Assembly: GCA_902786815.1 (NCBI GenBank)
Contig: CADADV010000022.1
Coordinates: 1-34,906 of the forward strand
Origin: an uncultured Eubacteriales bacterium
GTDB lineage: Bacteria; Bacillota; Clostridia; Peptostreptococcales; Anaerovoracaceae
Reading direction: 5' to 3'
DNA length: 34,906 nucleotides
Shown piece by piece: positions 204-13,913 of this stretch. The notes beneath the pieces were generated by a model. That model worked only from the letters and a program-made list of their open reading frames with translations, was not told the DNA's origin and did no database searches. The position numbers and the translations under genes were made by a program. Positions within the stretch are counted from its first letter, which is position 1, and each line of letters opens with the position of its first letter.

Positions 204-3200
204 TTATTCCACTATTTCTTCACTATCGTCATCATCGTCTGTCTTTGCGGCTTTTCTGCGCTTAAGCAGTACGTACAGGACTTCTGCCGCAAGCAGCATC
301 AGTGCAACGGCCAGTACGATATGAACATTGTCCCCTGTCTTCGGAGAATGCTCGATCGGCGTACCCGGTTTAACGACCTTGACCGTCTGGTCCTTGTCCT
401 TCAGGTCCTTATGCTCCGCAACGATGGTCTTTGGAGCCTTCTCTACGTCGTCGCCCTTCTTGTAGCCATCCAGTCTGTAGGCTGTTTCAAAGGCAACGAG
501 TTCTTTCCCTGCAAGGCCTTTGGTATTGACCTCAAAAGTGACCTTCACCTTGCCGTTCTTAAGCAAAGGCTTGAATGGCTTGCTGGTGACAGTGATCGGG
601 GTGCCGTTTTCCACAAGCGGATCTCCGGTATCCTTGACCATCAGCTCGCCGGTGAAGACGTACCACTTGGACGTATCCAGGGCTTTGTAGGCGATGGTAT
701 CAACCAGAACCGTTTTCTCTCCCTCGACAACTGCCTTGTCACCGTTCTTCGCGGTCAGAGTCGTTCCGATCTCAGGCTTCTGCACAGGTGTCTGCGCGTA
801 GTCTTCCTTAGGCTCCAGCGTTCCCGGCTCGTCCGGGTTTTCCGGATTCGGATAGGTCACGTTGGTGCAGGACGCCGTGTTCCAGTAGCCGTCATGATCA
901 TCAGTTTCGTTCTTCTGATAGACGATATTGGTGTCATTTCCCTTCTCATCCAGTGAGTCGGAATCCTTTGCTGCAGCTGCCAGATATTCCTTCGCCTCAT
1001 CCTTTACCTTGGCGGTATAGGTGATCGTGGCCTTCTCTTTCGGATTCAGGGTGATGTTGGCAACGAACTTGTCCTTGCCCTGGTTGTTCCAGGTTCCCTG
1101 ACCCGTGAATACCGCGCTCTTCAGCTCCGGAACCGTGAAATAATCAACGCCTTCCATGAAGGTATCGGTCACATCCATGGTCAGAGCGATGTTGCCGGTG
1201 TTCTCGATATGGACCTCGTATTCGACCTCATCCTGCGCAAAGAAGCCGTACTTATCGCCCTTGGACGGAGCTTTGGTCGTTCTGATCTTGTACATCTCGT
1301 ACGCAGGATTCAGCTTCTCCCAGGTGACAGTCTGGCCTTCGTCTTCAAGATCTTCGTGCTTGGCAGTGATATGGCCTTCTGTATCATAGACTGCTTCAAA
1401 GACTACAGTATCCTTGCCGTACATCAGGCTTCCGTCGAAGGTGAATTCGACTTTGACCTTGCCATTTGAGAAATGAGCCGTGAATTCCTGTTCGGCAGCA
1501 ATTTCCTTACCGGCAGCGTCTTTCACGACTTCACCCGTCTTCTTGTCCATGAGACGTCCCTGAGCCACGTATTTCTGCCCTCTGACGAGATTTTTGTACT
1601 CAATGGTATCAATGAGCGTGATCTGCTTATCTGGCGTGATATTGGCTTTTTCGCCGTTTACAGCAGCAGTCGTTCCGATCTCCGGCACATCATCTGTGAT
1701 GGTCTCCAGATCCACGAATCCGTTCTGCGACTTCTGATCTACGGTGAAATAGAACTTCTGCAGGATATATCCTTCGTTCGCTTCACATGGCATCTCCTCC
1801 AGGATATAGGAATCGTACGGGAGCGCACCGAACTTGTTGTTCATCTCGGCTGTGCTGCCGAACTCGCCGGTGCCGAACCATACGCCCTGCAGGATCTGCT
1901 GCGCTCTCTTCTCAAGATCTGCGGATTTGATTTCCTTGGCTTCAAGCAGATCATCGAACGGGTTCTGGACTCTCGCGGTATCCGCGTCCTCATCCTCATC
2001 CAGATCGCCTGCGGCTCTTCTGTCTTTGGTGGAGAAGAATCCGTTCTTATCCGTTACGACCACATGGCTCTCTCCGTTGGTCACACTGATGATCTTGAAC
2101 GGCACGAAGCTGAAGCGCTTGGAGTCGCCGTCGCCGATCTTGGTGCCCTGCACGTCAGAGCGGTACACATAGTCATCAAATGTCAGAGGGGCTTCGTTGT
2201 TTCCATCATCATAGGAATAGATGGTTCCGTCCTCTCTGACCTCAAACATGTGCTCCGTCTTGTCGGTTCTCTGGTAGGTGGCGTTGGTCTTGGACTCACG
2301 GATGGTGTAGGTTCCGTACGGCAGATCATCACTGAGTGTCTCAGCAGTGTAGGCTTTCTTGTCCGCGTTCCAGTGGACCGTGATCTTGCCTACGTCCTCG
2401 CCGGACTTCACTCTTTTGATTGTGCCTGCTTCAAAGAGCTCTGCCTTGGACTGCAGCTCCTTCCAGTTGACCTTATCGGTCTTGTTGTCCAGGTCTTTTC
2501 TGACGACCACGTCACGTCCGGAAACGTTCTTGATGGTCATGACGATGCCGCTTAGGTTCGCTCCGCCAAGGGCCTCGGACTTCTTCAGTTCCTTATCGCG
2601 CTTGATGATCTGTACGCCGCCTCTTTCCACGGCCTCTCTGACCTTATCCGCGGTCAGATCGATCATTTCTCCGTCTGTACGGATACGGAAAGCTCTGGAC
2701 CACTTCTCATTGAGAAGATATCCTTCGCTCGGCTTTGTTTCCTTCACAAGATAGGATCCATATGGCAGAACCTTCTGCGCGGATGTCGCGATGCCCTCTG
2801 CGTTCGTTGTGATCACAAGGGCAGCGCCGTCGACAGCGATCTCCTTGCCGCCAACCATGACGGATTCCTTGGATTTGTTGTAGATGGTGAACTCTGCGCC
2901 TTCCAGCGTGGCGTCGCCCTGCGCGTAGGCTTCATCCAGATCATTATCGATCTTGGCCAGCTTCACGCCGCCGCGGATGATTGTTTCATCTCCTTTGATG
3001 GACTCATTGTAAGTCTTCACATGGAGATTGTCTGTGCCGTCCTCTGTGATGTGGACGACCAGCTTCTCGTTATTGAGAAGATAACCTATGGATGGTGTCA
3101 CTTCCTGAATGACATAAGTCCCCAGCGGATAGCAGATCTTGCCGTCCTTATCCTTATAGAAGGCGGAATTGGTCTTTCCATCTGCTTTCACAGGATTCTG

Positions 3201-4370
3201 TCCGTTGATCTTGCCGTTTGCGTCTGTGACGAAGTGCCATGTGGCGGTCGCGTTTCCGGATCCTTCAGCTGCAGCAGCAGTACTGTACTGTCCGTCATAG
3301 TAGCTGAACTTGAATACAGCTCCCGCAAGCGTTGCATCACCTTCACCATGGTCATGCGGATAACCTGCCGGATTCTTTGTCAGAAGCAGGTTCACAAGGT
3401 CCGTGATCGGCTCTTCCTTGGCTGTGAAGGTCGTGGTCTCGTCGGACTCCACATTCACAGTATAGGTTGACGTGTCTTTGGCGTATCCCGGAGGCGCTGT
3501 CGTTTCTTTAACAGTATATGTGCCCTCCATTACCTCGATGGTGTTGCTGGTCCCGTCTGCCTTGACCGTCAACGTCCCGACAGTCTTTCCGTCAGAGTCA
3601 TACACCGTATAGACTGCACCTTTGATGCTGTAGCAGGCGTTGCCGTCTGTGATGGACGTTCTGTTGGACGCCTTCTTCATGTTGATATAGCCCGGCGCTT
3701 CCATATATCCGACGATCATATCCTGTACGCCGGACATATAGCAGATGAATACCTTGAAGCTGTCGGGAACAGCATCATCCTTTGCGGAGTCCGGTGACCA
3801 CATCGCATCGCCCAGTCTCTTTGCCTTTGTCCAGACATCTCCCAGATCAGACGCGTGGGTTCCGCCCCAGGTCGCCATATCAGACGGTCTTCCGGCGTAG
3901 ATATAGGACAGCGCAAGGTGCGCGATGCCCCAGTCCTTGCTGAAGTTCCCTGTGTAATAGGTCTCCTTGACGTTCTTCACGTTGTTGTCGTAACCGGGAT
4001 AGGACGGTGAGTAATAGACGACGTTCCTCAGGGCGTTCCATTTGCCTGTGTCGTTGTCGTCTGTGATGACCTTATCTACGGTCACGGTGCCTGTTCCCGG
4101 TGACGCCTTGGATGGCTGCACGCAGTAGGAATAACGGGTGCCCAGATCGTCGTCCAGGTCGCACTTTCTGGAGTTGCTGTATCCGCCGTTTCCGGACCCG
4201 TATGTGATCTGGCCGCCGTCCCATACGGTGTATTTACTGCCCTTCTTGCCTGTAAAGGCAGCATAGGATGGATCCGTGATCAGCCCCGCAAACAGGCTGA
4301 AGACCATGAGGACGGCGATTCCCATGGTCAGGATCCGTTTCGTTTTGTTGTTTCTTACGTAATCTGTCAT
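204..4370 (-). CDS. LPXTG-type surface adhesin with Cna-B/SpaA and VaFE (T-Q ester) repeats
   Basis: This 1388-residue cell-wall-anchored protein is probably an adhesin or pilin-like stalk displayed outside the cell. The frame is open further upstream, but the ATG at 4368-4370 has a GGAGGAA site and begins a typical signal peptide (TKRILTMGIAVLMVFSLFAG, cleavage likely after PSYA at about residue 37). An N-terminal domain with YCVQP (Cys83) and HLALSYIY (151-158) resembles the thioester-type head domains of such adhesins. Several SpaA/Cna-B prealbumin-like repeats follow, each ending in motifs such as ETTAPPGY, QEVTPSIGY and KETKPSEGY. Two VaFE/T-Q ester-bond domains lie near residues 870-1010 and 1190-1320 (VVFE, VAFE and the DLxDxxQTV endings). 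They flank a DUF11-like domain. The C-terminus has the sortase signal SPKTGDN, a hydrophobic segment, KRRK and an unusually acidic tail. The family call is firm; the ligand is unknown. Confidence 0.92.
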   Translation of the reverse strand: MTDYVRNNKTKRILTMGIAVLMVFSLFAGLITDPSYAAFTGKKGSKYTVWDGGQITYGSGNGGYSNSRKCDLDDDLGTRYSYCVQPSKASPGTGTVTVDKVITDDNDTGKWNALRNVVYYSPSYPGYDNNVKNVKETYYTGNFSKDWGIAHLALSYIYAGRPSDMATWGGTHASDLGDVWTKAKRLGDAMWSPDSAKDDAVPDSFKVFICYMSGVQDMIVGYMEAPGYINMKKASNRTSITDGNACYSIKGAVYTVYDSDGKTVGTLTVKADGTSNTIEVMEGTYTVKETTAPPGYAKDTSTYTVNVESDETTTFTAKEEPITDLVNLLLTKNPAGYPHDHGEGDATLAGAVFKFSYYDGQYSTAAAAEGSGNATATWHFVTDANGKINGQNPVKADGKTNSAFYKDKDGKICYPLGTYVIQEVTPSIGYLLNNEKLVVHITEDGTDNLHVKTYNESIKGDETIIRGGVKLAKIDNDLDEAYAQGDATLEGAEFTIYNKSKESVMVGGKEIAVDGAALVITTNAEGIATSAQKVLPYGSYLVKETKPSEGYLLNEKWSRAFRIRTDGEMIDLTADKVREAVERGGVQIIKRDKELKKSEALGGANLSGIVMTIKNVSGRDVVVRKDLDNKTDKVNWKELQSKAELFEAGTIKRVKSGEDVGKITVHWNADKKAYTAETLSDDLPYGTYTIRESKTNATYQRTDKTEHMFEVREDGTIYSYDDGNNEAPLTFDDYVYRSDVQGTKIGDGDSKRFSFVPFKIISVTNGESHVVVTDKNGFFSTKDRRAAGDLDEDEDADTARVQNPFDDLLEAKEIKSADLEKRAQQILQGVWFGTGEFGSTAEMNNKFGALPYDSYILEEMPCEANEGYILQKFYFTVDQKSQNGFVDLETITDDVPEIGTTAAVNGEKANITPDKQITLIDTIEYKNLVRGQKYVAQGRLMDKKTGEVVKDAAGKEIAAEQEFTAHFSNGKVKVEFTFDGSLMYGKDTVVFEAVYDTEGHITAKHEDLEDEGQTVTWEKLNPAYEMYKIRTTKAPSKGDKYGFFAQDEVEYEVHIENTGNIALTMDVTDTFMEGVDYFTVPELKSAVFTGQGTWNNQGKDKFVANITLNPKEKATITYTAKVKDEAKEYLAAAAKDSDSLDEKGNDTNIVYQKNETDDHDGYWNTASCTNVTYPNPENPDEPGTLEPKEDYAQTPVQKPEIGTTLTAKNGDKAVVEGEKTVLVDTIAYKALDTSKWYVFTGELMVKDTGDPLVENGTPITVTSKPFKPLLKNGKVKVTFEVNTKGLAGKELVAFETAYRLDGYKKGDDVEKAPKTIVAEHKDLKDKDQTVKVVKPGTPIEHSPKTGDNVHIVLAVALMLLAAEVLYVLLKRRKAAKTDDDDDSEEIVE

Positions 4371-4384
4371 TGGTTCCTCCTCTC

Positions 4385-4525
4385 TCAGATCATGACTGCC
4401 AGAATGATGAACGGCAGGGTCAGGACCCAGGCGATCCTGGACGCCGCTTCCTCTGACAGTGCTACGTAGATGCCGTCGTCGCATCTGCAGATGATGGTTT
4501 CTTCGTTTTCTCTTTTTTCTTTCAT
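4385..4525 (-). CDS. 46-residue putative single-span membrane peptide
   Basis: This short ORF begins with an ATG at 4523-4525, has an AAAGGGGAAG ribosome binding site and ends with TGA at 4385-4387. It starts MKEKRENEETIICRCDDGIY. The first half is charged with two cysteines (CRC). The second half, from about residue 31, is hydrophobic (WVLTLPFIILAVMI) and looks like a C-terminal membrane anchor. It lies 14 bases upstream of the adhesin start and immediately downstream of the parB terminator, so it is probably the first gene of the adhesin transcript. I do not recognise a family. Confidence 0.6.
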   Translation of the reverse strand: MKEKRENEETIICRCDDGIYVALSEEAASRIAWVLTLPFIILAVMI

Positions 4526-4540
4526 GCTTCCCCTTTCCGG

Positions 4541-4571
4541 CAAACAAAAAACGCCGGATCTCTCCGACGTT
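4541..4571 (-). terminator. Terminator after parB
   Basis: On the minus strand the stem AACGTCGGA/TCCGGCGTT (one G-T wobble) with loop GAGA is followed by TTTTTTGTTTG. It separates the parA-parB transcript from the downstream adhesin genes. Confidence 0.85.
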
Positions 4572-7583: not shown

Positions 7584-7658
7584 TGGCTAGGGTAGCAGGA
7601 TTCGAACCTGCGCATGACGGAATCAGAATCCGTTGCCTTACCGCTTGGCGATACCCCA
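7584..7658 (-). tRNA. tRNA-Gln (anticodon CTG)
   Basis: A full cloverleaf is visible on the minus strand. The acceptor is TGGGGTA/TACCCTA, the anticodon loop is TTCTGAT, the T-arm is GCAGG-TTCGAAT-CCTGC, the discriminator is G and the CCA is encoded (7584-7586). The anticodon is CTG. It is the last gene of the tRNA operon, so its 3' end faces the element-like block. Confidence 0.95.
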
Positions 7659-7666
7659 TCACTTTT

Positions 7667-7742
7667 TGGGGTGGATAGTGGGATTCGAACCCACGCATAA
7701 CGGAGCCACAACCCGCTGTCTTAACCACTTGACTATACCCAC
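7667..7742 (-). tRNA. tRNA-His (anticodon GTG)
   Basis: The acceptor is GTGGGTA/TATCCAC, the anticodon loop is TTGTGGC and CCA is encoded at 7667-7669. A G at position -1 (base 7743) pairs with discriminator C73, the hallmark of tRNA-His. Confidence 0.95.
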
Positions 7743-7771
7743 CACAATCAGTTTGATCGGTTTGACCGATA

Positions 7772-7846
<75 letters not shown>

Positions 7847-7932
7847 ACATCAATGCCGATTATCAGTGCCAAATTATGTAGTTTTTGTTTTTATAGACCA
7901 CAGAGCGCATTGCTGCGCTCTGCAGTCGTTCT

Positions 7933-8009
7933 TGGCGATCCGGATCAGGCTCGAACTGACGACCTCCAGCGTGACAGGCTGGCATTCTAACCAACTGAAC
8001 TACCGGACC
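7933..8009 (-). tRNA. tRNA-Asp (anticodon GTC)
   Basis: The acceptor is GGTCCGG/CCGGATC with one G-T wobble, discriminator G and encoded CCA. The anticodon loop reads CTGTCAC, giving anticodon GTC. The 86-base gap upstream of tRNA-Cys holds no further tRNA. Confidence 0.95.
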
Positions 8010-8014
8010 GTATT

Positions 8015-8090
8015 TGGTGGGAGTTACAGGGCTCGAACCTGTGACCCCCTGCTTGTAAGGCAGATGCTCTCCCAGCTGAGCTAAACTCCC
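8015..8090 (-). tRNA. tRNA-Val (anticodon TAC)
   Basis: The acceptor is GGGAGTT/AACTCCC with discriminator A and encoded CCA. The anticodon loop CTTACAA gives anticodon TAC. It is separated from tRNA-Met by a single base. Confidence 0.95.
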
Positions 8091-8091
8091 A

Positions 8092-8168
8092 TGGTAGCGG
8101 CGAGTGGAGTCGAACCACCGACCTTCCGGGTATGAACCGGACGCTCTAGCCAACTAAGCTACACCGCC
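8092..8168 (-). tRNA. tRNA-Met (anticodon CAT), elongator type
   Basis: The acceptor is GGCGGTG/CGCCGCT-type with discriminator A and encoded CCA; the anticodon loop is TTCATAC. G1 is base-paired and the initiator's GGG/CCC anticodon-stem signature is missing, so this is an elongator rather than an initiator. An Ile2 (lysidine) tRNA with CAT is possible but less likely from the overall sequence. It is the first tRNA behind the operon promoter. Confidence 0.9.
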
Positions 8169-8246: not shown

Positions 8247-9131
8247 TTATTCTGTCTGTGTGTCAACTTGCGTTTCGACTTCTGCCGATTCCCCTGCAGA
8301 CTTCATCTTGTCTTTCATAAAAGCCTTGATATATTCCGCGGATTTCTCCTCGATTTCGATGTCTTCCGGAGCAAGTTTCCGCCCCACTTTCACACCTGCC
8401 AGAGTCGCTGCCGCTTCGACAAGTCCTGATGTCAGATGCGGATTCTTTGTAAGCAAAGGCCCCAGCACGCCTGTATAGACCACGCCGTCGCTCACGGCGC
8501 CTTCTACTCCGTCGTCGTTGTTGCCTCTGCCGTAGACGACCTTTCCGAATGGCTTTTGCCCTTCTCCGAGTGTAACGTCAGCTACCTGGATCTGGTTGCC
8601 GATGACATCAAGGCCGTCCTCAGTTCTGACCCAGATGTCGTCACCCCAGACGGACTCCCGCTCCTTCCAGGTCATATCCAGCAGGCCGGTCCCGTTGACG
8701 ATGCTCCCGTCGTACAGCTCCACCGTCTTTGCCAGAGCTGCGCCGCTGCTGCCGTTGGCGATGAGCAGCCCGCCCCTTCTGATGAACCTTTTGATGCCGT
8801 CCATCTGACGGATCAGCGCAGCAGCCACTTTGTCCACGCACTTGAGCTCGCCTGCTGTCATATAAACGATGTGCGGCCAGCTCCAGTCCGCCTCTGCCTT
8901 CAAGTCATCCAGCCTCCTGATTTCCACAGGAATGTCCATCAGATCGCACATGTGCAAAAACGCCATCACGTCCCCGCGTCCGCCGTGGATGTTCAGCACG
9001 TCAGGATAGAGCCAAAGGATATGCAGTCTCCTGAACCCGCTCTCGCCCGTGACCTCCGACACATTAGTCAGGGTCTCGGTGCTCCTGTTGAACTGTTCGC
9101 GTATTCTGTTTAATTTATCGAAATCACTCAT
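8247..9131 (-). CDS. GatD-like amidotransferase subunit lacking catalytic Cys and His
   Basis: This 294-residue protein has the GatD/CobB-CobQ-type class I glutamine amidotransferase fold. LYPDVLNIHGGRGDVMAFL (41-59), GTGLLDMTW and KVVYGRGNNDDGVEGA (197-212) line up with canonical GatD. GatD normally releases ammonia from glutamine for amidation of D-Glu in lipid II with MurT. Here the nucleophile motif ICGGYQ is replaced by IANGSSG (Asn126 in place of Cys), the TYLHG histidine is replaced in TGVLGP (Leu223), and the GGG oxyanion-region motif is TAG. It is therefore probably a pseudo-enzyme or ammonia-independent partner. The ATG at 9129-9131 with GAGGGAG upstream is preferred to the ORF start at 9200, which overlaps murT. 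The gap to murT is 14 bases. The tail is acidic and polar. Confidence 0.8.
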   Translation of the reverse strand: MSDFDKLNRIREQFNRSTETLTNVSEVTGESGFRRLHILWLYPDVLNIHGGRGDVMAFLHMCDLMDIPVEIRRLDDLKAEADWSWPHIVYMTAGELKCVDKVAAALIRQMDGIKRFIRRGGLLIANGSSGAALAKTVELYDGSIVNGTGLLDMTWKERESVWGDDIWVRTEDGLDVIGNQIQVADVTLGEGQKPFGKVVYGRGNNDDGVEGAVSDGVVYTGVLGPLLTKNPHLTSGLVEAAATLAGVKVGRKLAPEDIEIEEKSAEYIKAFMKDKMKSAGESAEVETQVDTQTE

Positions 9132-9145
9132 TGTATTATGCTCCC

Positions 9146-10498
9146 TCACCCATTCAGTTTCTTCACGTATTCTGCCAGCGCTTCGTACTTGTGGAGCCAC
9201 GTGATCAGATACACGTTGTCGCAGTCGTACTTCTCCAGTTCATCGATGATCGTCTTGTCATCGTTCGTCGGGAGCACGGTCAGTTTTTCCTCTGCAAAAC
9301 CATCATAGAGCATGCGCAGCCCCGCGTCGTAAGCGACAGTTCCGGAGAAACAAATGCACCGTTCGATGCCGGATGCGATCAGCCTGCGGAAATCGCAGTC
9401 GAACGTGTAGAATGTATTCGTGTAATGCGGATCGAAATCCACCAGTTCATCCAGACCCAGCAGGAAGATCTTCGGCGTCGGGTCGTCCGCGATCACGTTG
9501 AGCGCCGACTGCACCGTCTCCGGATTTTCCTGTTTCATACGCAGGTACTTGATCTCTTTGGTTCCTACCTTGACGGTCTCCATTCTTCCGCCCTGTAATG
9601 CAAAATCAGCAAATGCTTCGCTGATCACATCGCTGCTTGCTCCGAACTCGGAAGCCACTGTAAGGGCCGCGATGTAGCAGTACAGGAAGTACGGTGTGCT
9701 GTATTTGAAATCATAGACCTTGTCACCGACATGGAATGTCTTTGCGTCGAAGTCGATCTCCGTGGCCAGATAGTCGTTGGCCGCGGCGCCGAATCCGCAA
9801 GTCGGGCAGTGGAAGCTGCCGATGTTGTCGATGTTGTAGTGATCGTATACGATGGCCTCATGGCAGATCGGGCACGGCGCAGTCACGGAGAAGAAGTCAT
9901 TCTTCTTATCAAAGGATGACTTGTTCCTGTCGACGCCGTACTTCACGCAGCGGCCAGCCTTCTCGCCCAGGCTCAGGGCGTTCGGCTCGTCCCCGTTCAC
10001 GTAAACGGTCATGTCTTCACTGATCACGGAAAGGATCTTCCGGCGGATGATCTCCGGCTCGCCGTTGCGCTGCACCTGATCCTTCTGCACGTTTGTAATG
10101 CAAAGGTGCTTCGCCGGAAGCTGTTTATGGATGATGGGCAGAAACCGCTCGTCGGTCTCCATGAGCACCACATCTGCGTTCAGCTGTCCTGAAAGGCTGC
10201 AGTTTTTGAGCAGCGAAACAACAACGCCGCCAATGAGGTTTGCCCCCTCGAGATTGACTGCGACTCTGAATCCGGCCTTCTTGAAAACGTGAGCCATCAG
10301 ATTGGTCGTGGTGCTTTTGCCGTTGGTCCCTGTAACAAAAATCGTTTTATCCGGATCGAGACCTTTGATGTGACTGATAAAATCCGGATCGAATTTCAGG
10401 GCGATCTTGCCGGGCAGATTGGTACCCCTTCCCTTGGCAACGATATTGATCGCCCACGCCGTAAACTTGGCGGCAAGCAATGCAAATCTGAATCTCAT
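9146..10498 (-). CDS. murT: MurT-family Mur ligase (lipid II isoglutaminyl synthase-type)
   Basis: This 450-residue Mur-ligase-like protein normally pairs with GatD to amidate peptidoglycan D-glutamate. The P-loop FVTGTNGKSTTTNL lies at about residues 54-67, the acidic METDERFLP segment at 113-121, and a MurT-specific zinc ribbon uses Cys209, Cys212, Cys231 and Cys234 (CPIC...CPTC). The C-terminal DUF1727-like domain is present, but the usual ND..ADGxDxSWxWD.DF segment is strongly altered (LDELVDFDPHYTNTFYTFDC). The start at 10496-10498 has AGGAGG only at long spacing (16 bases), so expression may be coupled to the upstream carD-like gene. Assignment to the MurT family is firm. The substrate is uncertain because both the C-terminal domain and the partner are atypical. 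Confidence 0.85.
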   Translation of the reverse strand: MRFRFALLAAKFTAWAINIVAKGRGTNLPGKIALKFDPDFISHIKGLDPDKTIFVTGTNGKSTTTNLMAHVFKKAGFRVAVNLEGANLIGGVVVSLLKNCSLSGQLNADVVLMETDERFLPIIHKQLPAKHLCITNVQKDQVQRNGEPEIIRRKILSVISEDMTVYVNGDEPNALSLGEKAGRCVKYGVDRNKSSFDKKNDFFSVTAPCPICHEAIVYDHYNIDNIGSFHCPTCGFGAAANDYLATEIDFDAKTFHVGDKVYDFKYSTPYFLYCYIAALTVASEFGASSDVISEAFADFALQGGRMETVKVGTKEIKYLRMKQENPETVQSALNVIADDPTPKIFLLGLDELVDFDPHYTNTFYTFDCDFRRLIASGIERCICFSGTVAYDAGLRMLYDGFAEEKLTVLPTNDDKTIIDELEKYDCDNVYLITWLHKYEALAEYVKKLNG

Positions 10499-11719: not shown

Positions 11720-12667
11720 TTAGAACGTCGCGACCTCCGGATCTGCCGGCTCGCACTTTCTGATTTTGCTGCAGATGAGCACGGGGCCTTCCTCCCCGTA
11801 TAGTTTTTCTTCCCGTATTTTTATGGTCGCGTCGACCGCAATCCAGTCGCCCGTCTTGAAATCGGTTGCTTTTGCATAAACGCACGCCAGGCCTGCGAAC
11901 TGAATGTCCGCTTCGCAGCACGTCATGACATGCCGCCCGAACACGAGATAATTGTCCGGTAAAGTGTTGTCCCTGGCAACCAGGCCTTTGACCTTGATTT
12001 TCTTGCCTTCGTAGTTGTCCTGATTTTCCGTGATGTCCCGGTACCATTCTGCGTACCACTCGTCCTTGATGGTGATGAGCGGCGCCTCCATGTCATAAGG
12101 AAGCGGATCCGGGATCTCATCAAAGACCACATTGTCCGGCTCGTATTCGTAGCAGATGTTGGATTTGCGGTTCGCCACGCGGACGAGTTTATGGTAATCC
12201 ATCTGGTCGTAGTCCTCGCTGAACCGGTTGAACACCACCAGTTCAGCAGTCTGCATCTTGTCGAAGGTCAGCTGCCGCATGTTGGTGTTGTACATCATGA
12301 ACGTGGATGCGTCTGCGAACATCATTTCCTGATAGATCGTCCAGTTCTCCGGCGCGGCGGTGAACAGATCCACCATCGGCCACATGCCGTTGTACTCAAT
12401 GAGTATCCGGTCCGCCATGTGCTTTTCCGTCAGATCCGCCAGCTTTGCCGGCTGCAGATCCTCCTTTTGGATCCTCTCCACGAAGACATCCGGAAATGCG
12501 AACTGTTCCGGATCCAGTTCCACCTCACCTTCCTCGCAAAGCAGCACCATTGTCCGTTCTCCGTCATAAAAGTCCTCGCCGCTCAAAAGGTCCATTAAAA
12601 AGGTTGTCTTTCCCGATCCCAGAAATCCGGTAAACAGATAGACCGGGACCTCTAAATTGCCCATCAT
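11720..12667 (-). CDS. CobW-like P-loop GTPase fused to a DUF1980/YcgQ-like domain
   Basis: This 315-residue protein has a G3E/COG0523 GTPase N-terminus. Walker A is GFLGSGKTT (14-22), ADRILIEYNGMW is the Walker B region and FNRF (146-149) sits at the guanine-specificity position. The metal-binding CxCC motif of classical CobW proteins is absent; the equivalent stretch is LLCEEGEVELDPE. The C-terminal part (about 218-305: YEGKKIKVKGLVARDNTLPD, then GRHVMTCCEADIQFAGLACV) resembles the OB-like C-terminal domain of YcgQ/TIGR03943 (DUF1980) proteins, including the paired cysteines 250-251. The start has GGGAG at 8-base spacing. The gene follows the His-rich CobW by 25 bases, so the two GTPases are co-transcribed and probably act together in metal trafficking. 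Confidence 0.82.
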   Translation of the reverse strand: MMGNLEVPVYLFTGFLGSGKTTFLMDLLSGEDFYDGERTMVLLCEEGEVELDPEQFAFPDVFVERIQKEDLQPAKLADLTEKHMADRILIEYNGMWPMVDLFTAAPENWTIYQEMMFADASTFMMYNTNMRQLTFDKMQTAELVVFNRFSEDYDQMDYHKLVRVANRKSNICYEYEPDNVVFDEIPDPLPYDMEAPLITIKDEWYAEWYRDITENQDNYEGKKIKVKGLVARDNTLPDNYLVFGRHVMTCCEADIQFAGLACVYAKATDFKTGDWIAVDATIKIREEKLYGEEGPVLICSKIRKCEPADPEVATF

Positions 12668-12692: not shown

Positions 12693-13862
12693 CTACAGTC
12701 CGAACATCTCCCGGATCGTATCCTGTTTGATATCGACGCCGATGACGCAGATCATTCCGGTAGTCTCTGCACTGCCGGTTCTCACCTGCGGCTCACCCGG
12801 CACGTAATCAAAGTGGATCCACTGACCATCCGTTCCTTCTACGATGCCCTTTGCTCTAAGCACCTGTCCGCATTTCTCTTCATCCTGCAGCGTTTCAAGC
12901 GCTGACTGGATCTGTTCCATCGTGTATTTATTGGTCGTTTCCTCACCAATGTCGCTAAACACCTCATCTGCGTGGTGGTGGCCCTCGTGACCATGGTGGT
13001 GGTGATGATGGTCGTGATCGTGGTGATCGTCGTGGTCGTGGTCCTCATGATCGTGGTGATGATGGTCATGCTCATCATGGTCGTGGTCATGATGATGATG
13101 TTCGTGTTCGTCGTGATCATGATCATGGTCATGCTCGTCATGGTCGTGGTCGTGATGGTGATGGTGGTGATGATCGTGCCCGTGTTCGTGCTGGTGCGCT
13201 TCCTCCTCCGCGTAGGCTTCTTCCCGCAGTCTATCCAGTTCGGCGGACAGAGTCTTCTTCTGCTCCATTGTTTCCAGAATCTGCTTGCCTGTCAGTTCAT
13301 CCCAGTCTGTCGTTACAATAGACGCATGGTCATTGTACTGACGGATAATGTCGACACACTCCTTGACCTTCGCCTCGCTCAGACCTTTCGTGTGGCTGAG
13401 TATGACAGAGCTGGCATGTTCCACCTGGTTCTGGTAGAATTCGCCGAAGTTCGCCATGTACATCTTGCAGAGCTTCGCGTCAACTACGGTGGTGAACCCG
13501 TTGAGTTCAATTTCCTCGATTCCGGCGTCCTGCACAGCGATGATTACATCACTCAGCTTGCCCACGCCAGACGGTTCGATCAAAATCCTTTCCGGCTCGT
13601 ACTGATCGATGACCTGCTTCAAAGCCGTCTTGAAATCACCTACCAGTGTGCAGCAAATGCACCCCGAATTCATCTCATTTATCTGAACGCCGGTGTCCTT
13701 CAGGAAGCCCCCGTCGATTCCGATCTCTCCAAACTCGTTCTCGATCAGAACCAGCTTCTCATCATAAGCTTCCTTGATCAGTTTCCTGATCAGCGTCGTC
13801 TTACCAGCGCCTAAAAAACCTGAAAAAATATCAACTTTAACTTTCTTCTCTGTATTAGCCAT
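12693..13862 (-). CDS. CobW/COG0523 metallochaperone GTPase with His/Asp-rich loop
   Basis: This 389-residue G3E-family GTPase probably inserts or distributes a transition metal (Zn, Co or Ni). Walker A is GFLGAGKTT (15-23), ENEFGEIGIDGGFL is the switch region and the metal-binding CxCC motif is GCICC (67-71). Residues about 223-298 are almost wholly His, Asp and Glu, an exceptionally long metal-binding or storage loop of about 75 residues. A CobW_C-type domain ends the protein (KCGQVLRAKGIVEGTDGQWI). The ATG at 13860-13862 is preceded by GGAGGTG; an upstream in-frame start is less likely. A sigma-A-type promoter lies at 13886-13913. The long low-complexity strand also creates a spurious Val/Met-rich ORF on the opposite strand. 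Confidence 0.92.
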   Translation of the reverse strand: MANTEKKVKVDIFSGFLGAGKTTLIRKLIKEAYDEKLVLIENEFGEIGIDGGFLKDTGVQINEMNSGCICCTLVGDFKTALKQVIDQYEPERILIEPSGVGKLSDVIIAVQDAGIEEIELNGFTTVVDAKLCKMYMANFGEFYQNQVEHASSVILSHTKGLSEAKVKECVDIIRQYNDHASIVTTDWDELTGKQILETMEQKKTLSAELDRLREEAYAEEEAHQHEHGHDHHHHHHHDHDHDEHDHDHDHDEHEHHHHDHDHDEHDHHHHDHEDHDHDDHHDHDHHHHHHGHEGHHHADEVFSDIGEETTNKYTMEQIQSALETLQDEEKCGQVLRAKGIVEGTDGQWIHFDYVPGEPQVRTGSAETTGMICVIGVDIKQDTIREMFGL

Positions 13863-13885
13863 TGTTGTCTTCACCTCCGCTATTG

Positions 13886-13913
13886 ATTCTAACACCAATC
13901 ACCCTAAAGTCAA
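13886..13913 (-). promoter_or_regulatory. Promoter of the CobW pair
   Basis: The minus strand has TTGACT (13908-13913), a 16-base spacer and TAGAAT (13886-13891), 24 bases before the CobW start. The short spacer is compatible with activator control, but no dyad is evident and this is inference. Confidence 0.6.

Follow-up and report, generated by a model that had tools for sequence, protein, structure and literature searches.

A MurT/GatD-like gene pair without a glutaminase triad in an uncultured Eubacteriales bacterium: a possible amino acid ligase of the cell wall

MurT and GatD are known elsewhere as a two-protein cell-wall enzyme that uses ammonia from glutamine to modify peptidoglycan. 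The window analysed here, a stretch of 34,906 nucleotides from an uncultured Eubacteriales bacterium, carries a pair of this kind in which the GatD-like partner appeared to have lost its catalytic residues. This raises the question of whether the pair still draws on glutamine and, if not, which nucleophile MurT would use.

The window pair and its former glutaminase site

Both genes lie on the minus strand, murT first, with 14 bases from the murT stop to the gatD start. The murT-like Mur ligase gene (9146..10498, stop included; coding 9149-10498) encodes 450 aa, and the gatD-like gene (8247..9131, stop included; coding 8250-9131) encodes 294 aa, most likely starting from the ATG at 9131. A CarD/RID-domain gene (Pfam PF02559; 10507..11037, minus strand) is located directly upstream and a cluster of six tRNA genes (7584..8168, minus strand) downstream, both of them context outside the enzyme. 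Further away, the window encodes a DUF1980 C-terminal domain fused to a CobW-type GTPase domain (11720-12667, minus strand), a second CobW gene (12693-13898) and a surface-type protein of 1447 aa with a thioester domain, SpaA folds and T-Q ester-bond domains (204-4547, minus strand).

The window MurT matched Pfam MurT_C at 51.6 bits, above the cut-off, and Mur_ligase_M was also matched; the GatD-like protein had no Pfam match, GATase_3 included, up to E 1. NCBIfam scores were below the cut-offs for both proteins (57.2 versus 400 bits for GatD, NF045636; 168.3 versus 800 for MurT), a weak test given that the MurT cut-off was passed by none of 61 genomes, including two with a canonical GatD. The nearest solved relatives of both proteins were GatD and MurT chains. 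In Foldseek searches with single-chain AlphaFold models, the GatD-like protein (pLDDT 88.5) matched Staphylococcus aureus GatD (6h5e_A) with a TM (target) of 0.92 at 21% identity, and the top PDB matches of MurT (pLDDT 85.7) were MurT. The window pair thus shares adjacent murT-gatD genes and both predicted folds with the lipid II isoglutaminyl synthase of S. aureus, S. pneumoniae and S. pyogenes, as well as the P-loop, the Mg-binding acids, the GAN motif and the Cys4 zinc ribbon. MurT belongs to the same superfamily as the Mur ligases MurC-MurF and differs from them in having a GatD partner and a zinc ribbon. Unlike MurC-MurF, it is without a uridine-binding N-terminal domain, in line with the accessible part of an earlier report (PMC6085368).

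For residue numbering, S. aureus GatD and MurT sequences from the public record were aligned to the window and its relatives. In the window, the catalytic Cys94 is replaced by Gly127 (codon ggc, 8751..8753), the catalytic His189 by Leu223 (ctg, 8463..8465) and the glutamine-binding Arg128 by Val161 (gtc, 8649..8651), all on the minus strand; Tyr17 is His49 and Asp19 is Gly51. The third triad residue, Asp349 of MurT, is Asn361 (aat, 9416..9418, minus strand). The nucleophile-elbow stretch reads ANGSSG and the His stretch TGVLGP, and both the Cys and the His of class I glutamine amidotransferases are missing. The first-pass annotation, made from the window alone, had reported both losses and placed the His at Leu223, as found here; its Asn126 falls at the position of Ile93, and the Cys position is Gly127. 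It had also described the C-terminal region of MurT as altered, and the alteration proved stronger than that, since the changed residue is the proposed third member of the triad.

According to the accessible parts of the S. aureus studies, the GatD variants C94G, C94S, C94A, H189A and R128A lost the tested activity, and MurT D349N had activity that was abolished (legend) or severely reduced (text) (PMC6113224, PMC6085368, PMC5871853). Asp349 was proposed there as the third triad residue (PMC6113224), and only a reduction in activity followed when the corresponding Asp of S. pneumoniae was changed to alanine (PMC6085368). Gly127 and Asn361 of the window are thus the same residues as in the inactive mutants C94G and D349N (PMC6113224, PMC6085368). 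Judged by sequence, the glutaminase of the window pair is almost certainly dead.

Conservation of the changed site

The same losses were found well beyond the window. Cys, His and Arg128 are gone in 19/19 aligned GatDs of the window's lineage, here called clade A, and in 10/10 further members from four other families of the class, where Asn also replaces MurT Asp349; in one alignment of clade A MurTs, 14 of 15 carry this Asn, the exception being L050. The genome is a 45-contig draft, which would leave room for a sequence error or a decaying pseudogene, yet the losses recur in these 29 sequences (19 + 10), dN/dS is low and the frame in the window is intact, so that we reject this explanation as having a negligible chance of being right. 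For the window pair against five relatives, dN/dS was 0.04-0.14, with one gatD pair undefined; together with the conserved motifs, this bears out the earlier view that the gene is not simply broken. A glutaminase that survives by using a nucleophile elsewhere, such as Cys98 in the GELKC motif, is likewise rejected as very improbable: Cys98 is invariant in a 16-row genus-level alignment, but it is missing in distant clade members (e.g. L045, L050, L052, L053 and L054), and GatD has also lost its catalytic His and its glutamine-binding Arg. Purifying selection acts on a clade that has lost both the triad and Arg128; glutamine is therefore very probably no longer a substrate of the pair, as the first-pass annotation had proposed.

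The ligase partner has kept most of its machinery. In an 18-row clade alignment, G57, N59, G60, K61, S62 and T63 of the MurT P-loop region (VTGTNGKSTT, residues 55-64; 10307..10336, minus strand) are invariant, as are the Mg-binding acids E114, D116 and E117, the GAN motif and all four cysteines of the zinc ribbon (Cys209, Cys212, Cys231 and Cys234; 9797..9874, minus strand), in agreement with the earlier description of the P-loop and zinc ribbon. At the adenine pocket, the window has Cys274 in place of Asn267, so that the case for an intact ATP site is weaker; Asn267 is retained in 9/10 clade A members from other families of the class. In addition, a conserved PHYTNT-type segment stands in place of the MurT DNAAD/GRD segment.

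The former GatD pocket is conserved as well. Six former active-site motifs, chosen by us from S. aureus numbering, had a conservation of 0.756 compared with 0.608 for all columns, and none of 10,000 random sets was as high. Conservation above the random level suggests a pocket that has been rebuilt, not one in decay. A separate observation concerns L026, whose murT is 99% identical to that of the window but whose gatD is only 89% identical (dS 0.13 and 0.37); a mixed bin or a recombination event may lie behind this mismatch.

Relatives and a second, independent Cys loss

We searched the own genome and 60 relatives (61 genomes in all). The window GatD was closely matched in 18 of them (E 4e-31 or better; one match is a 75-residue fragment), and three more had weak matches. 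MurT was present in 30 genomes: the 18 with clade A, two with a canonical GatD (G036 and G059) and ten others. In nine of these ten the GatD partner could be read and belongs to a second Cys-less kind, type B, with one partner split over two frames; G005, among the ten, ends at a contig edge. The first-pass annotation had suggested that the window pair might be a neofunctionalised paralogue beside a canonical pair. This was not supported for the own genome: in its assembly, which is 91.9% complete, we found a single MurT, and the only other GATase_3 match, considered as a second GatD, sits among his genes and reads as HisH.

Type B GatD (motif LITGNAMELFG and the like) also adjoins MurT, and Cys and His are missing in 7/7 aligned sequences; the alignment to S. 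aureus numbering took in six of the nine close-sample type B partners. Type B loci (L092, L093, L098, L099, L100, L103, L104, L119, L123, L124 and L285) were found in same-genus genomes, one same-order genome and Vescimonas fastidiosa, in which the protein is annotated as hypothetical. Type B differs from the window GatD in its replacement motifs and in keeping Tyr17 in 5/7 sequences, and its MurT falls in a separate tree group. By reading of the sequence, a MurC-like gene comes next after the type B pair in L092.

A record scan with two short peptides as its only queries gave 30 loci, mostly titled Firmicutes, Bacillota, Clostridia or Clostridiales, and including a Mogibacterium record, a Family XIII record and one Propionibacteriaceae MAG. 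The class sample comprised 341 genomes, of which 38 matched the clade profile at E 1e-35. Besides the own genome we read 29 of these, ranking above the remaining eight: 10 belong to clade A, 17 are canonical and 2 are Cys-less in other ways. One clade A member, G883, is very probably Acetobacterium woodii. Together with the 19 aligned GatDs, the 10 class members speak against chance and against a sequence error, in that none of them has the Cys or the His. In a sample from the class of the Propionibacteriaceae MAG (345 genomes), that MAG alone belonged to clade A by score (7e-99; next match 5e-29). It also has a second GatD fragment with the canonical His and a GFENH motif, its Cys region lying beyond the contig end.

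The other Cys-less GatDs read in this class came from nine genomes, all of one actinomycete family, which is probably Microbacteriaceae judging from its sequences: the 16S is about 92% identical to Arthrobacter, and one canonical GatD of the family is 85% identical to a Leifsonia plasmid protein, plasmid genes being prone to move. The murT-gatD pair on a Leifsonia plasmid (L284), with a canonical GatD, adjoins a predicted vanY-like peptidase. We read 70 loci of the family for the Cys, among the matches listed, with 115/398 genomes having no match: the 30 best matches were all Cys-less, and another 40, sampled along the listed ranking, comprised 28 Cys-less and 12 canonical forms. The search started from a Cys-less query, and the sample is biased towards such forms accordingly.

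In the actinomycete Cys-less GatDs, the Cys94 position holds Gly, Ala, Ser, Thr or Asn, and MurT adjoins, as in the window. Arg128 (12 aligned rows) and the MurT Asp are kept, and the His often is, so the remodelling differs from that of clade A. In the MurT tree, clade A (100/100) is far from the actinomycete Cys-less clade (100/99), and this separate clade indicates that the Cys was lost there independently.

Neighbouring genes and the proposed nucleophile

In some clade A relatives, a racemase-family gene accompanies the pair. An ornithine-racemase (orr) homologue directly follows gatD in three of 13 informative record-scan loci (L052/L166, L053 and L054), informative meaning at least 1.5 kb of downstream sequence (13 of 30 loci), and in one of ten class-sample clade A loci (L290/L324); the three scanned with the NCBIfam Orr model were all below its cut-off. 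No orr or alr-like gene was found near the pair in 10/13 and 9/10 of these loci, respectively, and no racemase gene adjoins the pair in the window. Among the 17 canonical class loci, none has an orr homologue within about 1.5 kb; in another canonical pair, L088, one lies upstream of murT with one gene between. The own genome has two orr homologues, both on contigs other than that of the window, and same-genus genomes without the clade A pair have them likewise. As a clade marker the gene was discarded, being present in 54/61 genomes with and without the pair, and in 7/8 clade genomes tested from the record scan. Since its presence is uninformative, only adjacency to the pair was used.

Among the actinomycete loci, alr-like genes occur within about 2 kb of 39/63 Cys-less pairs (28 on the same strand, 11 on the opposite strand) compared with 0/12 canonical pairs (Fisher p 4.8e-5; same strand only, 0.0026; relatedness uncorrected), the G255 locus, the source of the alr queries, being excluded from the count. 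In L171 (5329-7067, minus strand), the Cys-less gatD is followed by a short alanine-racemase-like protein (236 aa) and then by a longer one; both are below the alr cut-off, and similar pairs recur in the family.

Genes of cell-wall type were also seen near clade A pairs. In L052 and L053, murT has a divergent murE as its neighbour; a MurE-like gene is one gene away in L326, and a four-domain PGM/PMM gene (labelled GlmM-like) directly follows gatD in L320 and L321 and lies one gene further in L318. These neighbours, and the invariant P-loop, Mg-binding acids and GAN motif, argue against a role outside peptidoglycan, or a complex with a regulatory or structural task in which ATP is bound but nothing is ligated to lipid II. 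In favour of such a role are the changes at Asn267 and in the muropeptide motif DNAAD, and the window's nearest neighbours, which are tRNAs and a CarD-like gene rather than wall genes; on balance we consider it distinctly unlikely.

Our preferred reading, which we put forward tentatively and at a little below an even chance, is that the pair works as an ATP-dependent ligase that attaches an amino acid to the D-Glu alpha-carboxyl; we infer its substrate, its nucleophile and the formation of the complex. By its family and its P-loop, Mg-binding and GAN residues, MurT would bind ATP and activate the D-Glu alpha-carboxyl of a peptidoglycan precursor. GatD would be without glutaminase activity while keeping its fold and, presumably, its place in the complex, and its remodelled pocket may hold or position the amine. 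The nucleophile would then be another amine, most likely an amino acid, instead of glutamine-derived ammonia, and in some members the neighbouring racemase could provide an ornithine-type D-amino acid for this role. An amino acid is favoured because of the orr adjacency in clade A and the racemase-like neighbours of the actinomycete Cys-less loci. Several points speak against the proposal: the window pair and most clade A loci have no such neighbour, the own MurE is of the meso-DAP type, Asn267 is changed, the canonical pair L088 also has an orr homologue nearby, and the actinomycete GatDs were remodelled differently. If the proposal is right, the pair would carry out the same ATP-driven joining of an amino acid to a carboxyl as MurC-MurF.

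The main rival is free ammonia, with MurT making D-isoglutamine on lipid II and GatD acting as a scaffold. S. aureus can use ammonia directly at pH 8.5 with GatD still required, according to the accessible part of one report (PMC6085368), and some clade members come from ammonia-rich habitats (7/30 record titles mention goat gut sites or horse faeces, the rest being mostly bare codes). Against it stand the former pocket, more conserved than the rest and with new fixed motifs, the racemase-family neighbours in some relatives, and the conserved PHYTNT-type segment in place of DNAAD/GRD; we regard ammonia as unlikely. Of the ammonia, other acceptor or structural role that the first-pass annotation had left side by side, the evidence thus leans to a nucleophile other than ammonia, probably an amino acid, with ammonia kept as an alternative. 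Even with ammonia as the nucleophile, the annotation of such pairs as "glutamine amidotransferase" would need correction, because the loss runs through whole lineages.

An amino acid ligase acting at the alpha-carboxyl would bear on group B peptidoglycan. Group B peptidoglycan is generally known as a trait of the Microbacteriaceae, and the murein of A. woodii is described as group B. Accessible parts of the literature report B-type peptidoglycan for Rhodoluna lacicola, of the Microbacteriaceae (PMC4156110), and type B2alpha for members of Eubacterium (PMC11382707). In searches that covered mostly non-subscription journals, we found no literature on the murein structure of A. woodii and none joining MurT, GatD and Microbacterium, and among the papers listed no title dealt with group B ligation or with pairs lacking the Cys. 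Such pairs have arisen at least twice and could conceivably be the unassigned ligases that attach an amino acid to the D-Glu alpha-carboxyl and so found the group B 2-4 cross-link, with GatD turned from a glutaminase into an amino acid holder and D-ornithine, D-lysine, D-diaminobutyrate or glycine as candidate amino acids; we hold this broader reading to be possible but doubtful. If true, the genetics of alpha-carboxyl branching in peptidoglycan, the 2-4 cross-link long familiar from wall chemistry included, would gain a candidate gene pair, and a chemotaxonomic trait would become a genetic question that can be tested in cultured, non-pathogenic bacteria. An exact match between Cys loss and group B was rejected, since 12 of the 40 family loci sampled along the listed ranking are canonical.

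The MurE motif was considered as another correlate. Taking the best MurE match per genome and setting aside five second copies, we found the DNPR motif of meso-DAP enzymes in 7/18 clade genomes compared with 5/5 canonical controls (Fisher p 0.037, relatedness uncorrected), which makes it a weak general correlate. The own MurE carries DNPR, and a full group B wall is therefore unlikely in the organism of the window; there, the product of the proposed ligase would be a side substituent.
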